Assembly (NCBI GenBank): GCA_900114885.1
Contig: FOUN01000008.1
Location: forward strand, 124,001-188,000
Origin: Psychrobacillus psychrodurans
Lineage (GTDB): Bacteria > Bacillota > Bacilli > Bacillales_A > Planococcaceae
Direction of reading: 5' to 3'
DNA length: 64,000 nt
Shown here: piece after piece, positions 4,125 to 59,819 of the stretch
Numbering within the stretch: position 1 is the first letter of the stretch
How the letters are laid out: the number at the start of each line of letters is the position of its first letter
Notes under the pieces: generated by a model
Seen by the model: only the letters and a program-made list of their open reading frames with translations
What the model was told of the DNA's origin: nothing
The model's database searches: none
Made by a program: the position numbers and the translations under genes

Positions 4125-4499
4125 ATGATTAAAATTGAATTACCAAAACCAACTGTAACGATCACCCAGCGTGAACAAGTACTAAAAGAAGGCGACATAG
4201 AAATTCCAGCAATTCATGGATTTATCGACTTCCATCAAATTCCTCGTGATAAAGGTGGCATATTCTTTTTCTATAATAAGAATGATGAACTTTTATTCGT
4301 TGGTAAAGCGCGTAAAATTAGACAACGTATAAAAAAACACTTTGAAGACAATGTATCTCCGATGATTAAACATCGAGATGAAGTGTACAAAATCAGTGTT
4401 TGTATTGTAGAAGAGGCAATGGATCGCGAAATTTATGAAACATATGCAATCAATACTCAAAAAGCGAAATATAATATCGACAAAGCATTTTTTAGATAA
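4125..4499 (+). CDS. GIY-YIG nuclease-domain protein
   Basis: 124 residues. Residues 44-72 read GGIFFFYNKNDELLFVGKA followed by RKIRQRIKKHF, the GIY-YIG fold seen at the N-terminus of UvrC; Bacillales carry short stand-alone versions often labelled nucleotide excision repair endonuclease. The usual GIY/YIG tyrosines are altered (GIFFFY, FVGKA), so catalytic activity is uncertain. A Glu-rich C-terminal helix follows. The ATG has GAGGACG upstream. It is a single-gene unit ended by a strong terminator. Confidence 0.75.
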   Translation: MIKIELPKPTVTITQREQVLKEGDIEIPAIHGFIDFHQIPRDKGGIFFFYNKNDELLFVGKARKIRQRIKKHFEDNVSPMIKHRDEVYKISVCIVEEAMDREIYETYAINTQKAKYNIDKAFFR

Positions 4500-4503
4500 G
4501 ATG

Positions 4504-4539
4504 AAATCCCATGTTCTCCAAAAGAGGACATGGGATTTT
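4504..4539 (+). terminator. Terminator after the GIY-YIG gene
   Basis: AAATCCCATGTTCTC pairs with GAGGACATGGGATTT across a short CAAAA loop and is followed by TTTTCTCTG. It lies four bases past the stop codon. Confidence 0.85.
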
Positions 4540-4544
4540 CTCTG

Positions 4545-4680
4545 TCTAGCTCCAGCTCCTAGCCCGCCTGAATCGCTTTAGGATTTCAGCGCTTGACGGA
4601 GGCCCACAGGATGTGGTTCAGTCAGTCGTCTCAACACGATGTCGCAAACTTAGACTGACTTCCAATACATAGGTGCATAC
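4545..4680. repeat. Dispersed intergenic repeat, family B
   Basis: Starts with TGTCTAGCTCCAGCTCCTAG and contains GCGCTTGACGGAGGCCCACA, then GTCGTCTCAACACGATGTCG and a closing TTAGACTGACTTCC that pairs with the earlier GGTTCAGTCAGT. From memory, this layout is common between genes in Bacillales; only one copy is in this window. No ORF. It separates the GIY-YIG terminator from the end of the reductase gene. Confidence 0.5.
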
Positions 4681-4686
4681 ACTTTT

Positions 4687-5679
4687 CTATTTTACTTCTT
4701 CAAAAATACTCGTACTATGCTTTGGTTGTACTCGAGCTTTCGGATCTATGAATGCTTTAATATGGCTTATAGCAATTGGAACCTCTCCAAAGCCTACGGC
4801 AATCAGTTTTACTTTCCCATCATGCGTACAAACATCACCCGCAGCATATATTCCTTCAACACTTGTTTCCATTTTTTCATTGACTACTACAGAATTTTTC
4901 TCCATTTCCAGACCCCATTCCTTTAGAGGGCCTAGTGAAGCAACGTTTCCGTAGTTCACTAAAACATGGTCTACTGCGATTCTTTCTTCAGCTTTATCTT
5001 TACTGACAATCACGACTTCTTGAATTTTTTCACCATCACCAGTTACTTCTTTTATGCCATATGGTGTTTTTACTTCAACAGACGAGTTTTGAAGCTGTTG
5101 AATAGTCATTTCATGTGCAGTAAATTGCTCCCTACGATGACAAATGGTTACCTTTGAAGCAACACCCTCTAACATTAATGACCAGTCGAGTGCTGAATCT
5201 CCTCCACCTAATACAAGAACATCAGAATCTCTAAAAGCCTCTAAACTCTTTACCTTGTAATGAAGGTTTTTCCCATCGTACTCGGCAACTCCTGGAACGT
5301 TTAACTTACGCGGCTGAAATGAGCCTATCCCAGAAGTTAATAGAATAGTTTTAGAATAATGCACATTCTTATCTGTTGTTAGTGCAAAGTAATCTGGTAG
5401 TTTCTCAAGCGCTATTGCTGTTTCCTCTAAGCAAATGGTTGGATTACTATATGCAGCCTGCTCCTCTAAATTTGCCACTAAATCCTTTGCTAATATCTTT
5501 GGAAGTCCGCCAATATCATATATATATTTATCAGGATAGAGCTCCATCAATTGACCGCCTAGTTGTGGAAGGCTATCGATAATTTTCACCTTCAAATCAC
5601 GTAACCCACCATAAAACGAAGCAAACAAACCTGTGGGACCACCACCAATAATCGTTACATCGTATAATTCACCATTCAT
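4687..5679 (-). CDS. yumC: Ferredoxin-NADP reductase, thioredoxin-reductase-like (YumC type)
   Basis: 330 residues, the usual length for this family. The FAD-binding GGGPTG is at residues 12-17 and the NADP-binding GGGDSA near residue 160, followed by CHRREQFTAHE. The second FAD site, GIYAAGDVC, is near residue 285. The redox CxxC of thioredoxin reductase is absent, which marks the ferredoxin/flavodoxin reductase group. It moves electrons between NADPH and ferredoxin in the cytoplasm. Single gene; ATG with GAGGTG upstream. Bacilli often have two paralogues, so the symbol is tentative. Confidence 0.9.
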   Translation of the reverse strand: MNGELYDVTIIGGGPTGLFASFYGGLRDLKVKIIDSLPQLGGQLMELYPDKYIYDIGGLPKILAKDLVANLEEQAAYSNPTICLEETAIALEKLPDYFALTTDKNVHYSKTILLTSGIGSFQPRKLNVPGVAEYDGKNLHYKVKSLEAFRDSDVLVLGGGDSALDWSLMLEGVASKVTICHRREQFTAHEMTIQQLQNSSVEVKTPYGIKEVTGDGEKIQEVVIVSKDKAEERIAVDHVLVNYGNVASLGPLKEWGLEMEKNSVVVNEKMETSVEGIYAAGDVCTHDGKVKLIAVGFGEVPIAISHIKAFIDPKARVQPKHSTSIFEEVK

Positions 5680-43324: not shown

Positions 43325-44449
43325 TTAACTTGAAATTTCACGAAAGTAGGAATCTATAAATGGCACAAGATAGTCAATCACCGCTTCATCTGGATTGAGC
43401 TTCGGATGATGCAATCCATAAGGTGATTCAACTCCAGCCCAAAATAACAGTCCCGGTATTTCTTGTAGGAAATAACCAAAGTCTTCGCCAGTCATAGCCG
43501 CATCACATAAAATGGCATTAGTTGCAGGATGCGCTTCTGCAAATGCCAAAAACTCGTTCGCAAGTACCTCATCATTTTTAACTTGATAATAGGACGAACC
43601 ATAGTTTATTTGAACAGAGCATTCAAAAGCAATTTCTGCTGCTCGACAAAATGCCTCGATCTTCTCTTTAATAATTGTCATTGTTCCTGCATCCATTGTA
43701 CGAATAGTTCCCTCTAACCTAGCATGTCCAGAAATTATATTCTGTACTGTTCCAGAGGTGAACTTCCCAATCGTAAGTACTGCGGGATCCATTGGATTGA
43801 CAGAACGGCTTACAATTGTCTGAAGTTGCAATAGTAGCGTAGCGGCCGCAACAGACATATCTCTGGCTTGATGCGGAAATGCTGCATGCCCCTCCTTACC
43901 AATGACATTGATAAACAATTCAGATGTATTGGCAAATAACAAACCTGGGCGCGTAGCTACAGTACCAACAGGGAATTCTGGTGCTACATGAAAGGCAAAT
44001 ATTTTATCAGGTACCAAAGCTTGTTGCTCTTCTTTCAGCCATTCACGCATTGGGAGAGCACCACCCGGACTTTCCTCAGCTGGTTGAAACAGAATAACTG
44101 CATGATCTTTTATAGGGTTTTCTACTAATTTTCTTAGTAGCCCCAGTGCCACAGTCATATGCATATCATGACCACAAGCATGCATTTTCCCCGGATGACT
44201 GGATTCAAAGGAAAGCCCAGTCACCTCTGTTATTGGAAGACCATCGATATCCGTTCTCCAGCCAATCGTTTGTGTAGGTTCGGTTCCTTCTATTTTCACA
44301 ACTATACCTGTTTTCCAAGTAGTAATTGTCAGTCTATCCTGTGGAAGTGTACGAATTTGCTCTAATAAATAATTTTGTGTTTTTACTTCTTCAAAACCTA
44401 ATTCAGGTATGCGATGTAAATCTCTCCGAATATCTTGTAAGGTTTTCAT
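43325..44449 (-). CDS. dapL: N-acetyldiaminopimelate deacetylase
   Basis: 374 residues of the M20/amidohydrolase fold. The metal ligands are in MHACGHDMHM and FQPAEESPGG, with HAAFPHQARD and the closing His in PYGLHHPKL. Located 11 bases after dapH, it removes the acetyl group from N-acetyl-LL-diaminopimelate in the acetylase branch of lysine and peptidoglycan precursor synthesis. That context separates it from similar hippurate-type hydrolases. It starts at ATG; the preceding AGTTGGTAGCTG is a modest site. Some databases use the name ykuR. Confidence 0.92.
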   Translation of the reverse strand: MKTLQDIRRDLHRIPELGFEEVKTQNYLLEQIRTLPQDRLTITTWKTGIVVKIEGTEPTQTIGWRTDIDGLPITEVTGLSFESSHPGKMHACGHDMHMTVALGLLRKLVENPIKDHAVILFQPAEESPGGALPMREWLKEEQQALVPDKIFAFHVAPEFPVGTVATRPGLLFANTSELFINVIGKEGHAAFPHQARDMSVAAATLLLQLQTIVSRSVNPMDPAVLTIGKFTSGTVQNIISGHARLEGTIRTMDAGTMTIIKEKIEAFCRAAEIAFECSVQINYGSSYYQVKNDEVLANEFLAFAEAHPATNAILCDAAMTGEDFGYFLQEIPGLLFWAGVESPYGLHHPKLNPDEAVIDYLVPFIDSYFREISS

Positions 44450-44460
44450 CAGCTACCAAC

Positions 44461-45174
44461 TTACAACTGACGTAATTCTTGCATGATTTCCGTTTTTGAT
44501 CTTGTTTGATCATCAATTTCTTTAATCACTTTTGCGGGTGCTCCAACGGCAACCGAGTACGGTGGAATATCCTTCGTTACAATTGCACCAGCAGCTACAA
44601 CTGCTCCTTTACCAACTCTACAACCTTCAAGAACTACAACATTTGCACCAATTAGTACATCATCTTCAATAATGACAGGAGTTGCAGAAGGTGGCTCAAT
44701 TACTCCTGCTAGCACTGCACCAGCACCAATATGACAGTTTTTCCCAACAGTCGCACGACCACCCAGAACTGCACCCATATCAATCATCGTACCTTCTCCA
44801 ATAACCGCACCAATATTAATAAGTGCCCCCATCATAATTACACTATTATCGCCGATACTAACTTGATCTCGAATAATTGCACCTGGCTCAATACGTGCAT
44901 TTATCCCCTTCAAATCTAAAAGTGGAATAGCAGAATTACGACTTTCGTTCTCAACTACTACATCTTCAATTTGATCTTTATATTCATTTAAAACGGATTC
45001 GATTTCAGACCATTCTCCAAATAATACTAGGGAATTTCCTTCACCAAAAACTTTTGTATGTTCTCCGAAAGAAATCTGATTTATGCCGTTTCCTTTTATG
45101 TATACTTTCACCTGCGTAGATTTCTTTGCATGCTGAATATATGAAATAATTTCGTTTGCATCTAGTTGTTTCAT
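44461..45174 (-). CDS. dapH: Tetrahydrodipicolinate N-acetyltransferase
   Basis: 237 residues. The C-terminal two thirds is a left-handed beta-helix of hexapeptide repeats ([39 protein letters not shown]). The N-terminal 85 residues are the DapH-specific domain ([19 protein letters not shown]). It acetylates tetrahydrodipicolinate with acetyl-CoA, the first step of the branch. It is the first gene of a two-gene operon; ATG with GGAGGT upstream. The 340 bases upstream are very A+T-rich and hold no visible lysine riboswitch. Confidence 0.94.
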
Positions 45175-45518: not shown

Positions 45519-46517
45519 TTGAAGAAAAATCAATTCAGGTTTTTAGCTTTACTTCTCGGCATGATATTATTACTCGCAGCTTGTAGTGAAAGCAAAAAAA
45601 ATATTGCAATTGGTCCTCCTGCCAGTGAAACAAATTCAGTTTCAAAAATTATCTTGGATGCCTACGGTCTCGAAGAAGGAGATTATAATGAGCATCAAGA
45701 AGGATTTGGAGATGCTGCTGACGGTGTGCAGGATGGAAACATTGACATTTCAATTGGAATTCTAGGACTTCCAGCCGCAAGTATTGAAAGCCTCCAAGCC
45801 TCCTCTGGTGACGTTGTGATGATTAGCCTTACTGATAATGCCATCAAGCATATTGAAGCTAATAGCGGATATAGACGTCATACAATTCCTAAGGACACAT
45901 ACGATTTTCTCGAGTCTGATGTCGAAACTGTTACTGCATATGCAATCCTCATGGCTAATACAGATACAATTAATGAAGAACTTGGTTATAATCTAACAAA
46001 AGTTATGATTGAAAAAGCAAGTGAAAATACACATGCTCAAGCTAAACAAATGACCTTAGAAAATGCACTATTAGGTTCAGAAGGGCTTCCCATCCATCCT
46101 GGAGCTAAACGCTATTACGAAGAACAAGGATTAACAGTAGAAAACCCAGTTGCTGAACTTAGTGCAGATGTAAGTGATGCCAAGAACGAATTTATCCTTG
46201 GTACCGGTAGTCAGGGTGGCACTTACTATCCTTTAGGTGGTGAAATGGCAAGCATTTGGAATAAAAATATTGATGATTTTAACGTGACAAACACCGAAAC
46301 CGGAGCATCTGTTGAAAACTTATCTAGTATCCGAGATGGACATATGGATCTAGGGATGACAGTACATGTACCAGCATTACAAGCAATAAACGGGGAGGCT
46401 GCATTCGAAGGACACAAAGTTCCAAACACCGCTTTTATTGGTCATATTTATCCCGAAGTCATTCAAATTGTTACACGCGAAGATTCTGGTATAAAAAGCT
46501 TTGATGATTTGAAATAA
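45519..46517 (+). CDS. TAXI-type TRAP solute-binding lipoprotein, circularly permuted
   Basis: 332 residues. The lipobox LLLAAC gives Cys22 as the lipid anchor. Normal TAXI proteins then run into the GTGGxGGTYYPLGG lobe and later cross to DDLKGKxxAIGPPGSGT. Here residue 27 goes directly to KNIAIGPPASETNS, the second half follows to HPGAKRYYEEQG (193-204), a linker (205-222) resembles a normal mature N-terminus, and only then comes FILGTGSQGGTYYPLGGE (225 on). The protein ends at GIKSFDDLK, exactly the normal junction. The whole domain is present in permuted order. The start is a TTG at 45519 with GGGGTGAG upstream. It is followed by its permease. Confidence 0.85.
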   Translation: MKKNQFRFLALLLGMILLLAACSESKKNIAIGPPASETNSVSKIILDAYGLEEGDYNEHQEGFGDAADGVQDGNIDISIGILGLPAASIESLQASSGDVVMISLTDNAIKHIEANSGYRRHTIPKDTYDFLESDVETVTAYAILMANTDTINEELGYNLTKVMIEKASENTHAQAKQMTLENALLGSEGLPIHPGAKRYYEEQGLTVENPVAELSADVSDAKNEFILGTGSQGGTYYPLGGEMASIWNKNIDDFNVTNTETGASVENLSSIRDGHMDLGMTVHVPALQAINGEAAFEGHKVPNTAFIGHIYPEVIQIVTREDSGIKSFDDLK

Positions 46518-46560: not shown

Positions 46561-48534
46561 ATGCAGGATAAGCAACCTATTAGTGCACAGGAAATCTTAG
46601 AAAAATACGATAAAGAAAATCAGTTCCGTACAAATATCGGTAAATGGGCATGGGTTGTCACATTTTTAGGTGTATCTCTTACTGTGTTCCATCTATACAC
46701 AGCGTATTTTGGCACTCTTCCCTCCCAGAAGCAAGGGGCCGTACATCTTGGTACCGCCCTTGGTGTTATATTTCTTTTGTACCCCGTTAAAAAAGGGATG
46801 CTAAAAGTACAAAAAAGAATTCCCTGGTATGATATATCACTAGCCTTCTTGGCAATGTATGTAACCTATCATAAGATTATTTTTTATGAATCGATTCTAC
46901 AAAGTCGTATTTCAGGATACAACACCCTAGATATAATCATTTCCTTACTAGGTATCCTTTTAGTACTTGAAGCTACAAGAAGAACAGTTGGCCTCCCAAT
47001 TGTAATAGTAGCTTCAGCAGCAATCTTGTATGCAATTTACGGAAATTTCGTCCCTACACAAATTCTTTCACACCCAGGTTTTTCAGTTGATCGAACAGCA
47101 ACCACTCTCTGGTATAAGGAAAGTGGTATTTTCGGAACTCCGATACAGATTTCAGCAAAATTTATTTTCCTCTTCTTATTTTTTGGCGTAATGCTCGTGC
47201 AAACAAATATCGGAAAATTCTTCAATGACCTAGCATTCGCTTTAACCGGCCGCTATACAGGGGGAACTGCAAAAACTGCCGTAGTAGCAAGTGCATTACA
47301 AGGGTCTGTATCCGGAAGTTCTGTCGGAAACACCGTTGCAACCGGATCCTTTACGATTCCAATGATGAAGAATGCAGGATTTAAACCTGAGTTTGCAGGT
47401 GCAACCGAAGCAGCAGCATCTACCGGTGGGCAAATCATGCCACCAATGATGGGGGCAGCAGCGTTTATTATGATGGAGTATCTAGGAGTTTCTTATGGAA
47501 CAATAATGTTGGCAGCACTTATTCCAGCTATTCTTTATTTCACTGGAATTTTCATTGGGACGCACTTTGAGGCAAAGAAATTAAAAATACACGGTTTACC
47601 AAAATCTCAATTACCGTCCTTTCGAAAACTTATGAAAAAAAACTGGTTTATGCTACTCCCACTAATTGTTATCATCGGAACGATTATGTATGGCTTCACA
47701 CCCCAACGAGCTGCTCTTTTTGGAATTATTACTGCATTTTTAGTTAGCCTTGTTCGCCAAGAAACAAGAATGTCGTTTAGAAAGACTATAAACGTCCTAG
47801 AACAAGGTACCAGAGTAGCACTTCCCGTCATAGCTGCTGTAGCAACAGCTGGCGTCATTGCAGGAGTTGTTAGTATGACAGGTCTTGGCTCAAAGTTTGC
47901 AGCTGGAGTAATTGAACTTTCGAATGGTTATCTAATTCTTGCTCTATTCTTCACTATGATTGCATGCCTTGTTCTTGGAATGGGTCTACCAACAACAGCA
48001 AATTACGTTGTGACCGCAACAATTGCAGCTCCCGTGCTTATAAATGAGTTCGGAGTGGCGCCAATAGCTGCTCATTTGTTCGTCTTCTATTTTGGAATTG
48101 CCGCCGACATAACCCCTCCAGTATGTTTAGCTGCATATGCTGGAGCTGGGATAGCAGGTGCAAATCCATTTAAGACTGGAATGATTGCTGTGAAATTAGC
48201 GATTGCTGCGTTTATCGTCCCATTTATTTTCATTTACAATCCAATTCTAGTAATGGTAGAAATCGAACCAGTTATGCTAGTATTCTCAGCGATTGCTGCG
48301 GTTATTGGTATGGCTGCTGTCAGCAGTTCGATGATAGGATATTTTATTCGAAACTCAAAGATTTGGGAAAGATTTATTCTTTTTATAGCAGGTATCATGC
48401 TTATCTTACCCGAGATTACTACCACTATAATAGGTATAGTATTAATTGTAGCCATTTGGTTCATACAGCATCGTCGAACAGATGATGATTATGGACTTCA
48501 AAGTTTAACAGGTAACATTTCTACGACAAATTAA
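46561..48534 (+). CDS. TRAP transporter fused permease (TAXI type)
   Basis: 657 residues with about 17 membrane helices: the small DctQ-like part and large DctM-like part fused in one chain, as in TAXI systems. Signatures are ALQGSVSGSSVGNTVATGSF, EAAASTGGQIMPPMMGAAAF, LGMGLPTTANYVV and AADITPPVCLAAYAGAGIAG. It imports an organic anion driven by an ion gradient, delivered by the binding protein encoded 43 bases upstream. The substrate is unknown, possibly a C4-acid or glutamate-like compound. ATG with GAGGTGGG upstream. Confidence 0.92.
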   Translation: MQDKQPISAQEILEKYDKENQFRTNIGKWAWVVTFLGVSLTVFHLYTAYFGTLPSQKQGAVHLGTALGVIFLLYPVKKGMLKVQKRIPWYDISLAFLAMYVTYHKIIFYESILQSRISGYNTLDIIISLLGILLVLEATRRTVGLPIVIVASAAILYAIYGNFVPTQILSHPGFSVDRTATTLWYKESGIFGTPIQISAKFIFLFLFFGVMLVQTNIGKFFNDLAFALTGRYTGGTAKTAVVASALQGSVSGSSVGNTVATGSFTIPMMKNAGFKPEFAGATEAAASTGGQIMPPMMGAAAFIMMEYLGVSYGTIMLAALIPAILYFTGIFIGTHFEAKKLKIHGLPKSQLPSFRKLMKKNWFMLLPLIVIIGTIMYGFTPQRAALFGIITAFLVSLVRQETRMSFRKTINVLEQGTRVALPVIAAVATAGVIAGVVSMTGLGSKFAAGVIELSNGYLILALFFTMIACLVLGMGLPTTANYVVTATIAAPVLINEFGVAPIAAHLFVFYFGIAADITPPVCLAAYAGAGIAGANPFKTGMIAVKLAIAAFIVPFIFIYNPILVMVEIEPVMLVFSAIAAVIGMAAVSSSMIGYFIRNSKIWERFILFIAGIMLILPEITTTIIGIVLIVAIWFIQHRRTDDDYGLQSLTGNISTTN

Positions 48535-48548
48535 TGGGAATATGCTAC

Positions 48549-48817
48549 AATTCAATTAACAAATTCGAAGGGATGATGGGTGGACAATGATTTAATAATC
48601 TTATTTCTTGCATAATATTTGCTGCTTCGTGCAGAACAAAATATTTAGAACGCAAACGGAAATAGGATTAGTCTGCCCATTATTCAAAAAAGTACGAATG
48701 ATATTCTCTACACTGCAGTGAATGTGTAGTGTTTTTTCGTATATTCTACATGGTCAGCAACATCCTTCCGTATAATTCGGAGGGATTTTTTTATTCCTCC
48801 AAAGAGGAGTTGTTTGA
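48549..48817 (+). promoter_or_regulatory. Leader of the ABC-F gene with two terminator hairpins (probable attenuator)
   Basis: After a possible promoter (TACAAT at 48550), the leader holds a hairpin near 48615 (CTGC-GCAG within paired AATATTT/AAATATT). Then follow a terminator-like stem CTACAC/GTGTAG (48708-48729) extended by TACGAA/TTCGTA with TTTTTT, and a second stem ATCCTTCCG/CGGAGGGAT (48762-48786) followed by six Ts. The gene's GAGGAG and ATG lie immediately after. Very short ATG frames occur near 48577-48590 (M-M-G-G-Q-stop and M-I-stop). This is the layout of antibiotic-induced attenuators of ribosome-protection ABC-F genes. Confidence 0.6.
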
Positions 48818-50473
48818 ATGACTTTATTAGGAAAACTAAATAATATTAGCATTACATTTGGGGATACTGAATTATTACAAAACGTAAATGTAGATATACC
48901 GGCAAATGCCGTGATTGGAATCGTTGGTGGAAACGGAGAAGGAAAATCTTCACTGCTTACCGTTCTCTTTAAAGAAGCCCTTCCTACTATTGGTAAAGTG
49001 GAATGGATTGGAAAATCCCCTTCTATCAGCTACTTCAAGCAGGAAGAAGAGCAATTTGATCAAACAGAATATGAACATGATGAAAGATCCTATTTCAGTA
49101 AATGGGCTGTTCCAGAAGAGAGGGAATATGCTCATCTTAGTGGCGGAGAAAAGATGAAAAGAAGACTTTCTCGTGTGTTTGCAGAGAATTCTCAAGTTTT
49201 ATTGCTAGATGAACCTACTAATCATTTGGATCAAGATAGCTTATCCTTCTTACAAAAACAAATCCTCTCCCACAGTGGCACATGTATTTTAGTATCACAT
49301 GACCGTTACTTCTTAGATGAGGTAGCAGATTATATATGGGAAGTTGAAAACAAAAACTTGACGGTATACACAGGGAATTACTCGACTTATAGGGATAAAA
49401 AAGCAGAGCGGCTACTGACTCAACAAAGGCTATATGATGCTCAACAATTGAAAATACAGCAGGTCGAGAATCAAATTACCGAGCTGAAAAACTGGTCTTC
49501 CAAAGCACATGCAGAATCCACCAAGCAAGAATTCAACAAAGAATACTATCGTGTGAAAGCGAAGAAAATGGACGTTCAAATACGCTCCAAAAAGAAAAGG
49601 CTTGAACTGGAACTCACCAAAAATACTATAGATAAACCAGGTATAGAAAAAGAAGTGTCGTTTTCCATTGAGGGAAACAAGAAAAAAGGTAAACGTGTCA
49701 TAGAAGTAAAAGATTTGAGGAAAGACTTTGAGAAAAGAACACTCTTTCAAAATACTTCATTCACCATACTAGCCGGAGAACGCGTAGGATTATTGGGTTC
49801 AAACGGCAGTGGAAAATCGACATTTTTTCGCATGCTCTTAGGGGAAGAAAGCTTTCAAGGAGAACTTTGGAAAACCGAATCTATGAATATTGGCTATTTA
49901 CGCCAAACTGTTTTCGACTTACCAGAAGATCAAACGCCATTTGAATTTTTTGGACCAACCGACTTTAAAGCAAGGGGACGTATCCAAACACTCATGACAA
50001 ATTTAGGCTTTTCAAAAGAACACTGGTCGCGATCCATATCAACTATGAGCATGGGGGAAAGAGTGAAGCTGAAGCTAATGGAGTTTATGCTCGATCAAAA
50101 GGACGTATTACTGTTAGACGAACCAACGAACCATTTAGATCTTCCTTCCCGTGAGCAACTAGAAAAAACTCTTTCTACTTACCCGGGGACCATTTTACTC
50201 GTAACACATGATCGATATTTTTTAGAAAAGCTAACGAACAAGTTGCTTGTAATTGAAAATAAATCAATTCGAAAGTTGGAAATGAATTATAACGAGTGGA
50301 TGCATAAAAACTATGAATCACATCTCGAAAAAGAACTTTTAACATTAGAAACAGAACGACAGGCCGTACTTGGAGAACTTAGTTTCTTAAAGAGTAAGGA
50401 TCCAAAATATAACAAGCTAGATGTACAATTTAACGAATTAACTAAGAAGATAAATGAATTAAAAAAGGGATAG
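48818..50473 (+). CDS. vmlR: ABC-F ribosome-protection protein, VmlR-like
   Basis: 551 residues with two ABC ATPase domains and no membrane part. The first has Walker A GGNGEGKSS (37-45), LSGGEK (108) and LLLDEPTNHLD (129); the second has GSNGSGKST, MSMGER and LLLDEPTNHLDLPSREQLE. The linker between them, with LKNWSSKAHAEST and KEYYRVKAKKMDVQI, closely resembles VmlR of B. subtilis, which frees ribosomes from lincosamides, streptogramin A and pleuromutilins. A C-terminal coiled helix ends the protein, as in VmlR. Expression is probably controlled by the attenuator upstream. Confidence 0.85.
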   Translation: MTLLGKLNNISITFGDTELLQNVNVDIPANAVIGIVGGNGEGKSSLLTVLFKEALPTIGKVEWIGKSPSISYFKQEEEQFDQTEYEHDERSYFSKWAVPEEREYAHLSGGEKMKRRLSRVFAENSQVLLLDEPTNHLDQDSLSFLQKQILSHSGTCILVSHDRYFLDEVADYIWEVENKNLTVYTGNYSTYRDKKAERLLTQQRLYDAQQLKIQQVENQITELKNWSSKAHAESTKQEFNKEYYRVKAKKMDVQIRSKKKRLELELTKNTIDKPGIEKEVSFSIEGNKKKGKRVIEVKDLRKDFEKRTLFQNTSFTILAGERVGLLGSNGSGKSTFFRMLLGEESFQGELWKTESMNIGYLRQTVFDLPEDQTPFEFFGPTDFKARGRIQTLMTNLGFSKEHWSRSISTMSMGERVKLKLMEFMLDQKDVLLLDEPTNHLDLPSREQLEKTLSTYPGTILLVTHDRYFLEKLTNKLLVIENKSIRKLEMNYNEWMHKNYESHLEKELLTLETERQAVLGELSFLKSKDPKYNKLDVQFNELTKKINELKKG

Positions 50474-59465: not shown

Positions 59466-59554
59466 GATACCTATTTATCGAGAAAATAAAAAAGAAAAAT
59501 AGAAACGTGCCGTACAATCCCTTAACTTCCGAAGAGTATCTATACGTTCAAGAA

Positions 59555-59725
59555 AAGGTTGGTCTCCTGGCTCATGCATCCATTTACTCTAAGAACCTTC
59601 CCATTGACTAATCAACAGTGGTATTTTTCTTATTTCATCAGCATTTACAGTTGCGGAAACAGCTTCGGATTTTAACCGAATTCCCAAATTAAGCTAACAA
59701 GTTAGCACCTTTTCCCTGCGAAAAT
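59555..59725 (-). ncRNA. Cobalamin riboswitch (B12 aptamer)
   Basis: Reading the minus strand, the order is GGTGC, a peripheral stem, GGGAATTCGGT, AAATCCG, GCTGTTTCCGCAACTGTAA (core with CCGCAACTGTAA) and, 90 bases on, GAGCCAGGAGACCAACC, the conserved B12 box. A terminator lies 90 bases downstream. It controls the adenosyltransferase-like gene and the BtuF-like gene. On cobalamin binding the terminator should form and shut off expression. Confidence 0.92.
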
Positions 59726-59819
59726 TATTCACTTACCACCAGTGTACCATAGCCATCTCGCTAACTGTAACAACAATTTCACACATGAAAATTCCTCATT
59801 TTTATGCTAATGTCAGTAT

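Follow-up and report, generated by a model that had tools for sequence, protein, structure and literature searches.

The window analysed here, a stretch of 64,000 nucleotides from contig FOUN01000008.1 of Psychrobacillus psychrodurans, contains a gene for a TAXI-type solute-binding protein (SBP) whose two parts stand in swapped order, followed by a gene for a fused TRAP permease. The TTG start of the SBP reading frame (45519-46517, plus strand) sits behind GGGGTGAG. The features of the locus are listed below, with the domain limits used for the parts of the SBP taken from the paper on the TAXI protein VcGluP (PMC11574862).

45519..46517, plus strand: gene of the permuted TAXI solute-binding lipoprotein (332 aa, initiated at TTG, coordinates including the stop codon)
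45519..45584, plus strand: lipoprotein signal peptide and lipobox, ending at Cys22
45597..46130, plus strand: residues 27-204, C-terminal in the parental order (the bulk of domain 2 with hinge strand 2 and the C-terminal segment of domain 1)
46131..46187, plus strand: residues 205-223, the linker between the two old termini, conserved in its first half and variable in its second
46188..46514, plus strand: residues 224-332, N-terminal in the parental order (the N-terminal segment of domain 1 with hinge strand 1 and a short helix ending DLK)
46561..48534, plus strand: fused TRAP permease (TIGR02123), beginning 43 bases after the stop of the SBP gene and presumed to work with the permuted SBP

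The adjacent fused QM permease scores 734 bits against the TIGR02123 cut-off of 320.65. Upstream of the SBP gene and divergent from it lie genes for DapH and an M20 peptidase of the diaminopimelate pathway type (43325-45174, minus strand); among the five loci of the Psychrobacillus clade (L034-L038), the M20 cluster is present in all five and the DapH cluster in four. Downstream, an Rfam match to the ncr1575 Bacillus sRNA (48555-48792, plus strand, 96.6 bits, gathering score 60) stands just 5' of a gene at 48818-50473 with two ABC_tran stretches (ABC-F-like), and the RNA is possibly a leader controlling that gene. Further RNAs in the window are a cobalamin riboswitch (59540-59727, minus strand, 112 bits) and a Bacillaceae-1 RNA (4603-4669, minus strand, 55.6 bits), and no ligand-sensing RNA near the permuted gene matched Rfam at gathering scores.

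The initial annotation, made from the sequence alone, had described the SBP as carrying its halves in swapped order, and the landmarks that it named are all found in the reading frame, including the lipobox at Cys22, NIAIGPPAS at residues 28-36, FILGTGSQGGTYYPLGG from residue 225 and the terminal GIKSFDDLK. Profile, phmmer and BLASTP comparisons agree that residues 27-204, the old C-terminal part, precede residues 224-332, the old N-terminal part. The TRAP_TAXI model TIGR02122 matches in two stretches at 232 bits (cut-off 84.35), and the higher-scoring one places residues 27-204 on profile positions 142-320 of 320, and PF16868 matches with 218 bits (cut-off 27), also in two stretches, with residues 26-204 on positions 111-289 of 289; the standard-order relative L107 matches PF16868 in a single collinear stretch, 1-289. 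By score under both models the protein is a TAXI member, but the collinear order of N-terminal part followed by C-terminal part is absent, and the swapped order thus makes it a permuted variant rather than an ordinary member. That it passes the TAXI cut-offs despite this order amounts to an annotation blind spot.

Comparison with single proteins leads to the same arrangement. Against the 300-residue chain of VcGluP (8s4j_A), phmmer aligns query residues 224-331 with chain residues 5-115 and query residues 27-205 with chain residues 118-298; as two swapped pieces cover nearly the entire chain, almost nothing is missing and only the order has changed. The coordinates of the best phmmer stretches fit the swapped order for all seven matched PDB sequences, and BLASTP against each of five single standard-order relatives returns two swapped pieces. 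When the relatives are doubled head to tail, as the initial annotation had proposed, each of the five gives one alignment running from residue 25 or 27 to 331 or 332, with 33.8-55.6% identity (the top alignment covering residues 27-332 at 55.6%) and a best E-value of 1.7e-124, and a control protein of standard order gains nothing from doubling. A remnant standard copy beside the gene is ruled out by a six-frame search of the window, in which other matches to either half reach only E-values of 1.3 or more. Both parts are thus homologous to one parent, their order is swapped, the old termini are joined and relatives retain the parental order, which confirms that the gene encodes a natural circular permutant of a TAXI-type TRAP SBP.

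The genome is a draft of 47 contigs, so a misjoining of adjacent pieces of a normal gene during assembly or cloning has to be considered, and is practically inconceivable. The permuted order occurs in 14 of 151 related genomes, this one included, among them assemblies of one contig (G012) and two contigs (G010), and in 69 named loci that include NZ_CP048812.1, a record titled complete genome; moreover, the junction linker is conserved among permuted members. Such independent assemblies rule out the artefact. According to the initial annotation, the permutation was to be abandoned if the join proved an artefact or if a close relative had the standard order here, and related genomes were to be searched for the same order; 8 of the 19 genomes of the same genus turn out to be permuted.

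The permuted form is widespread but patchy. A search of genome contigs found it in 69 of 74 named loci and standard order in the remaining five, a proportion that favours permuted relatives since the scan used patterns from the permuted query. The 69 loci comprise Bacillota (Psychrobacillus, Sporosarcina, Siminovitchia, Oceanobacillus, Virgibacillus, Bhargavaea, Paucisalibacillus, Salinibacillus and others) and gammaproteobacteria, namely the Halomonadaceae Halomonas, Vreelandella, Billgrantia and Bisbaumannia and one Pseudomonas. Wider genome samples were searched at E-values of 1e-60 or 1e-100 with models from an alignment of 59 permuted sequences. Permuted genes were found in 8 of 398 genomes of the same class, where 10 more genomes have a standard-order relative, in 14 of 151 from the family to which a Halomonas genome belongs, in 1 of 369 of the class of the Pseudomonas genome (that genome itself) and in 1 of 299 of the phylum of the window's genome (again the genome itself), alongside one standard-order relative. 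Among plasmids, 342 records matched, all below 60% identity, and all 20 matches listed of the 342 came in two pieces. Oceanobacillus damuensis has two operons with a permuted TAXI gene, L049 and L050, each on a separate contig.

The permuted gene is under purifying selection. Against seven relatives, pN/pS is 0.09-0.19 for the whole gene and 0.03-0.16 for the two halves, the more diverged pairs being near saturation at synonymous sites, and the linker, which is short and has few sites, gives 0.22-1.43, indicating weaker constraint than in the halves. Both the secretion signal and the permease partner are kept, as first proposed. A lipobox-like motif, defined by a permissive pattern, is present in all 69 named permuted members, C22 is found in at least 90% of the 59 aligned members (the alignment comprises 59 of the permuted sequences collected), and a TRAP_fused-type permease follows the SBP in 74 of 75 permuted loci, counting 73 in the permease tree and L086, where it is cut by the contig end. 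In the 11.4 kb locus L055 (Virgibacillus sp. MSJ-26), the permuted gene at 4352-5365 has no TRAP permease match and the next reading frame is of 996 aa. The purifying selection, the universal lipobox and the confident structural model described below argue for function, and the permuted family is apparently old, conserved and functional.

VcGluP consists of domain 1 (residues 29-115 and 268-328) and domain 2 (132-254), joined by hinge strands at 116-131 and 255-267 (PMC11574862). If 28 is added to the chain numbers of 8s4j to obtain VcGluP numbering, the cut lies between residues 143 and 146; this is within domain 2, 12-15 residues beyond hinge strand 1, and not at the crossing between the lobes, where the initial annotation had set it. 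Both hinge strands are therefore kept, the two old termini both lie in domain 1, and the lipid anchor is transferred from domain 1 to domain 2. By DSSP, the predicted model has a helix at 328-331 before the cut and a strand at 28-30 after it. The linker that joins the old termini had been likened to a mature N-terminus, a description that is too simple: its second part (residues 215-223) is variable and contains indels, and residues 205-214 are conserved with the consensus LTVDNPVAEL (N209 in 56 and A212 in all 59 aligned permuted members) and modelled with pLDDT 87-98.

Structure prediction, which had also been suggested at the outset, gives a confident model. AlphaFold2 with 59 permuted sequences reaches pLDDT 90 and pTM 0.83 for the permuted protein, and 92 and 0.84 for the standard-order L107, and after rotation all 21 DSSP elements following the signal peptide correspond in order between the two models. 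Foldseek, whose alignment is order-dependent, matches the permuted model to the TAXI structure 9ibp_A over 206 columns (TM 0.47) and the standard-order model over 302 columns (TM 0.75); the top match of the latter is 1us4 (298 columns, TM 0.86), which is absent among the best 50 matches listed for the permuted model. The protein is thus predicted to retain the type II (Cluster F) fold, bilobed and with a pair of hinge strands. The permuted chain would begin with the signal peptide and lipobox placed in front of a domain 2 strand, and a linker of about 18 residues would bridge the old domain 1 termini. As in the standard-order sisters, the fold would be a Venus flytrap with two hinge strands and a preserved ligand pocket, but with the membrane anchor on domain 2.

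The closest standard-order proteins allow the event to be placed. These sisters come from Anaerobacillus, Salipaludibacillus, Alkalicoccus and other genomes of the class (L102-L104, L106-L117), are about 48-66% identical to the window's SBP per half and 54-62% in the permease, and differ in their standard order and, in several, an acidic low-complexity spacer after the lipobox. In a tree of SBPs with the halves reset to standard order (97 sequences, 13 of 110 having been dropped for identical halves), the 72 permuted rows form one clade with support 99/96 against 25 standard rows; the nearest rows to this clade are standard-order proteins of the same class, and it is attached to two particular standard rows by a branch of weak support (88/34). 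The permease tree was built leaving aside L001-L033 (with L008, L013 and L017 kept), L055, where the permease match is absent, and L086, with fewer than 350 aligned residues at a contig end. In it the 73 partners of permuted SBPs likewise group together in a single clade (SH-aLRT 99, without bootstrap), nested within a set of 19 permeases whose SBPs have the standard order.

Neighbouring genes are also shared between the two groups. A PLP gene resembling glutamate-1-semialdehyde aminomutase lies in the flanks of 11 of the 15 sisters and of three permuted loci (L050, L119 and L118, cut in the last by the locus edge about 5 kb away), as well as near L030, a TAXI protein outside this group, and an RpiR regulator accompanies 12 of the 15 sisters and the permuted L119. 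The single SBP clade, the matching permease clade and the shared neighbours suggest that the permutation most likely happened once, in place, beside its permease in a working SBP-permease operon. In an ancestral Bacillota operon of this kind, the gene would have been opened after the helix that ends in DDLK and before the domain 2 strand (GK)xxAIGPP. All 24 gammaproteobacterial rows group together within the Bacillota rows in one sub-clade (100/99), which is best read as one later transfer of the permuted form into the Halomonadaceae.

Duplication with trimming is the usual model for permutation, and the route first suggested, a duplication followed by deletion of the outer halves, is plausible here. 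Since none of the 124 TAXI reading frames of the loci carries one half twice, as a tandem or fused intermediate would, this route is inferred. The absence of that intermediate also speaks for fission and re-fusion, or for transposition of the N-terminal piece, but no split gene is seen, the one partial C-half reading frame (L041) sitting at a locus edge, and these routes are appreciably less likely than duplication and trimming.

Several standard-order loci have features of their own. A KamA-family radical SAM protein is encoded near sisters L102-L104, L106, L107, L115 and L117, and the one scanned, that of L106, is nearest to glutamate 2,3-aminomutase, below its cut-off; the sister transporters may feed an unusual amino-acid pathway. 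In L043, L044 and L048 (Siminovitchia, B. norwichensis), a standard-order TAXI operon of SBP, a 141-177 aa protein and permease stands directly upstream of the permuted operon, and its SBP is only a distant relative.

For the ligand, the pocket can be compared with the 13 contact positions named for VcGluP, which like TtGluBP binds glutamate (PMC11574862). Six of these (S40, Y45, Y46, S75, E125, G203) are identical in all 75 permuted rows and seven differ, with T in place of V44, V of Q93, Y of H123, T of D157, G of Y200, mostly I of M201, and a variable residue at G156. At 12 of the 13 positions, the majority residue is the same or similar in permuted rows and standard sisters. The Q93-to-V change, at V282 of the permuted protein, and the Y200-to-G change occur in all 75 permuted and all 15 standard sister rows, which indicates that the shift predates the permutation. 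As Q93 is the strongest glutamate determinant of VcGluP, whose loss costs most affinity (PMC11574862), the seven changed contacts make glutamate itself doubtful as the ligand.

The gene context in gammaproteobacteria hints at a homologue of glutamate. At least one of 2-aminoadipate transaminase, HglS and YdiJ is encoded in the flanks of 20 of the 24 gammaproteobacterial permuted loci, which are related and hence do not represent 20 independent cases; the exceptions are L081, L084, L087 and, on a short contig, L086. The 36 genes comprise 15 transaminases (NF049976), 16 HglS (NF049974) and 5 D-2-hydroxyglutarate dehydrogenases YdiJ (NF049975), all above curated cut-offs, and HglS acts on 2-oxoadipate in D-lysine catabolism (PMC7286885). 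A class-III PLP gene at L050, grouped by clustering with the aminoadipate transaminases, was rejected as one and left out of this context, as the family scan assigns it to the glutamate-1-semialdehyde-aminomutase-like proteins. Together with the glutamate ligand of VcGluP and TtGluBP, these neighbours suggest 2-aminoadipate or a related amino-dicarboxylate, an assignment that is tentative and falls somewhat short of even chances.

Less likely is a VcGluP-like transporter of glutamate or glutamine with no relation to aminoadipate. This alternative draws on the glutamate binding of the two characterized proteins, the six identical contacts and the aminomutase-like genes near 11 of 15 standard relatives, and it is opposed by the replacement of Q93 and Y200 in every permuted and sister row and by the 2-aminoadipate degradation genes. 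In the window's own relatives, HglS is ruled out as a ligand clue, being found in none of 151 genomes with the positive control detected, so the aminoadipate context holds only for gammaproteobacteria and this organism may feed its substrate elsewhere. The transaminase model at E 1e-150 also matched none of the 151 genomes, a result that is uninformative because the control genome was likewise undetected. The neighbours in this lineage, DapH, M20 peptidase and ABC-F, point to no firm ligand.

The seven changed contacts, the anchor shifted to the other domain and the lone L055 gene could also be signs of a domesticated protein that has kept its fold in a non-transport role, for example as a sensor or an anchored scavenger. 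Such a loss of transport is quite improbable given the permease in nearly every permuted locus, the agreement of the permease and SBP clades, and the replacement of Q93 and Y200 in all 15 standard-order sisters as well. Transport by the permuted SBP and its permease is inferred, with the SBP capturing a small amino-dicarboxylate, at best guess 2-aminoadipate or a related glutamate homologue, which it would hand to the adjacent fused permease. Taken together, the data make it very probable that the gene specifies a working lipid-anchored permuted TAXI SBP of single origin, which would capture a ligand, perhaps an amino-dicarboxylate, for delivery to its neighbour.

The permuted protein shares with the TAXI family (TIGR02122/PF16868; VcGluP 8s4j, TtGluBP 1us4) homology of both halves, an adjacent fused TRAP permease, part of the VcGluP contacts and the predicted bilobed fold, and like many TAXI proteins it is a lipoprotein. 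It differs from standard members in having the C-terminal before the N-terminal part, the anchor on domain 2 and the old termini linked; VcGluP residues Q93 and Y200 are replaced, but no less so in its standard-order sisters. The TAXI-GltS protein BP0403 (PMC12344293) is also a TAXI protein of unusual architecture, but one with extra domains, a GltS partner and an SBP domain described as being of standard architecture. No natural circular permutation of a TRAP or TAXI SBP was found among the papers listed in searches of the open-licence literature, and no word beginning 'permut' occurs in the available portions of two recent TAXI papers (PMC11574862, PMC12344293). The original claim of novelty, made for TRAP binding proteins, thus stands within this literature, but among bilobed SBPs at large there is a published precedent in TpMglB-2 (PMC4990184), the one natural case in an SBP recognised among those papers. 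As far as the searches show, what is new is the family in which the permutation occurs, its cut site, the relocated anchor and the relatives that cleanly represent the states before and after; the phenomenon itself is known from another SBP cluster. Since close standard-order relatives stand beside homologous permeases, the two forms constitute a natural experiment on chain-end and anchor position, and the effects of these on ligand capture, domain closure and docking in tethered SBPs become testable.

TpMglB-2 (Tp0684) of Treponema pallidum is a naturally permuted glucose-binding lipoprotein of an ABC system; the study describing it put forward 'Type Ic / Cluster Bc' as a permuted class and also speculated about tethering (PMC4990184). 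Homology to MglB-type Cluster B did not appear among the profile and Foldseek matches: Pfam gives NMT1_3 only, NCBIfam gives TRAP_TAXI with weak sub-cut-off SsuA and HP0135, and the best Foldseek matches of the permuted model are TAXI 9ibp followed by low-TM ABC binding proteins such as PhnD and OpuAC. Relocation of the anchor to domain 2 might have altered docking on the permease or opening, so that the permutation was selected across the whole lineage rather than neutral and, with TpMglB-2, represents convergent anchor relocation, a speculation we regard as unlikely though worth stating. The two proteins have in common a natural permutation in a bilobed, membrane-tethered SBP with Gram-positive relatives (PMC4990184), but TpMglB-2 belongs to an ABC system and Cluster B and is cut inside the N lobe with a fourth hinge crossing, whereas the present protein belongs to Cluster F (TAXI) and keeps two hinge strands.
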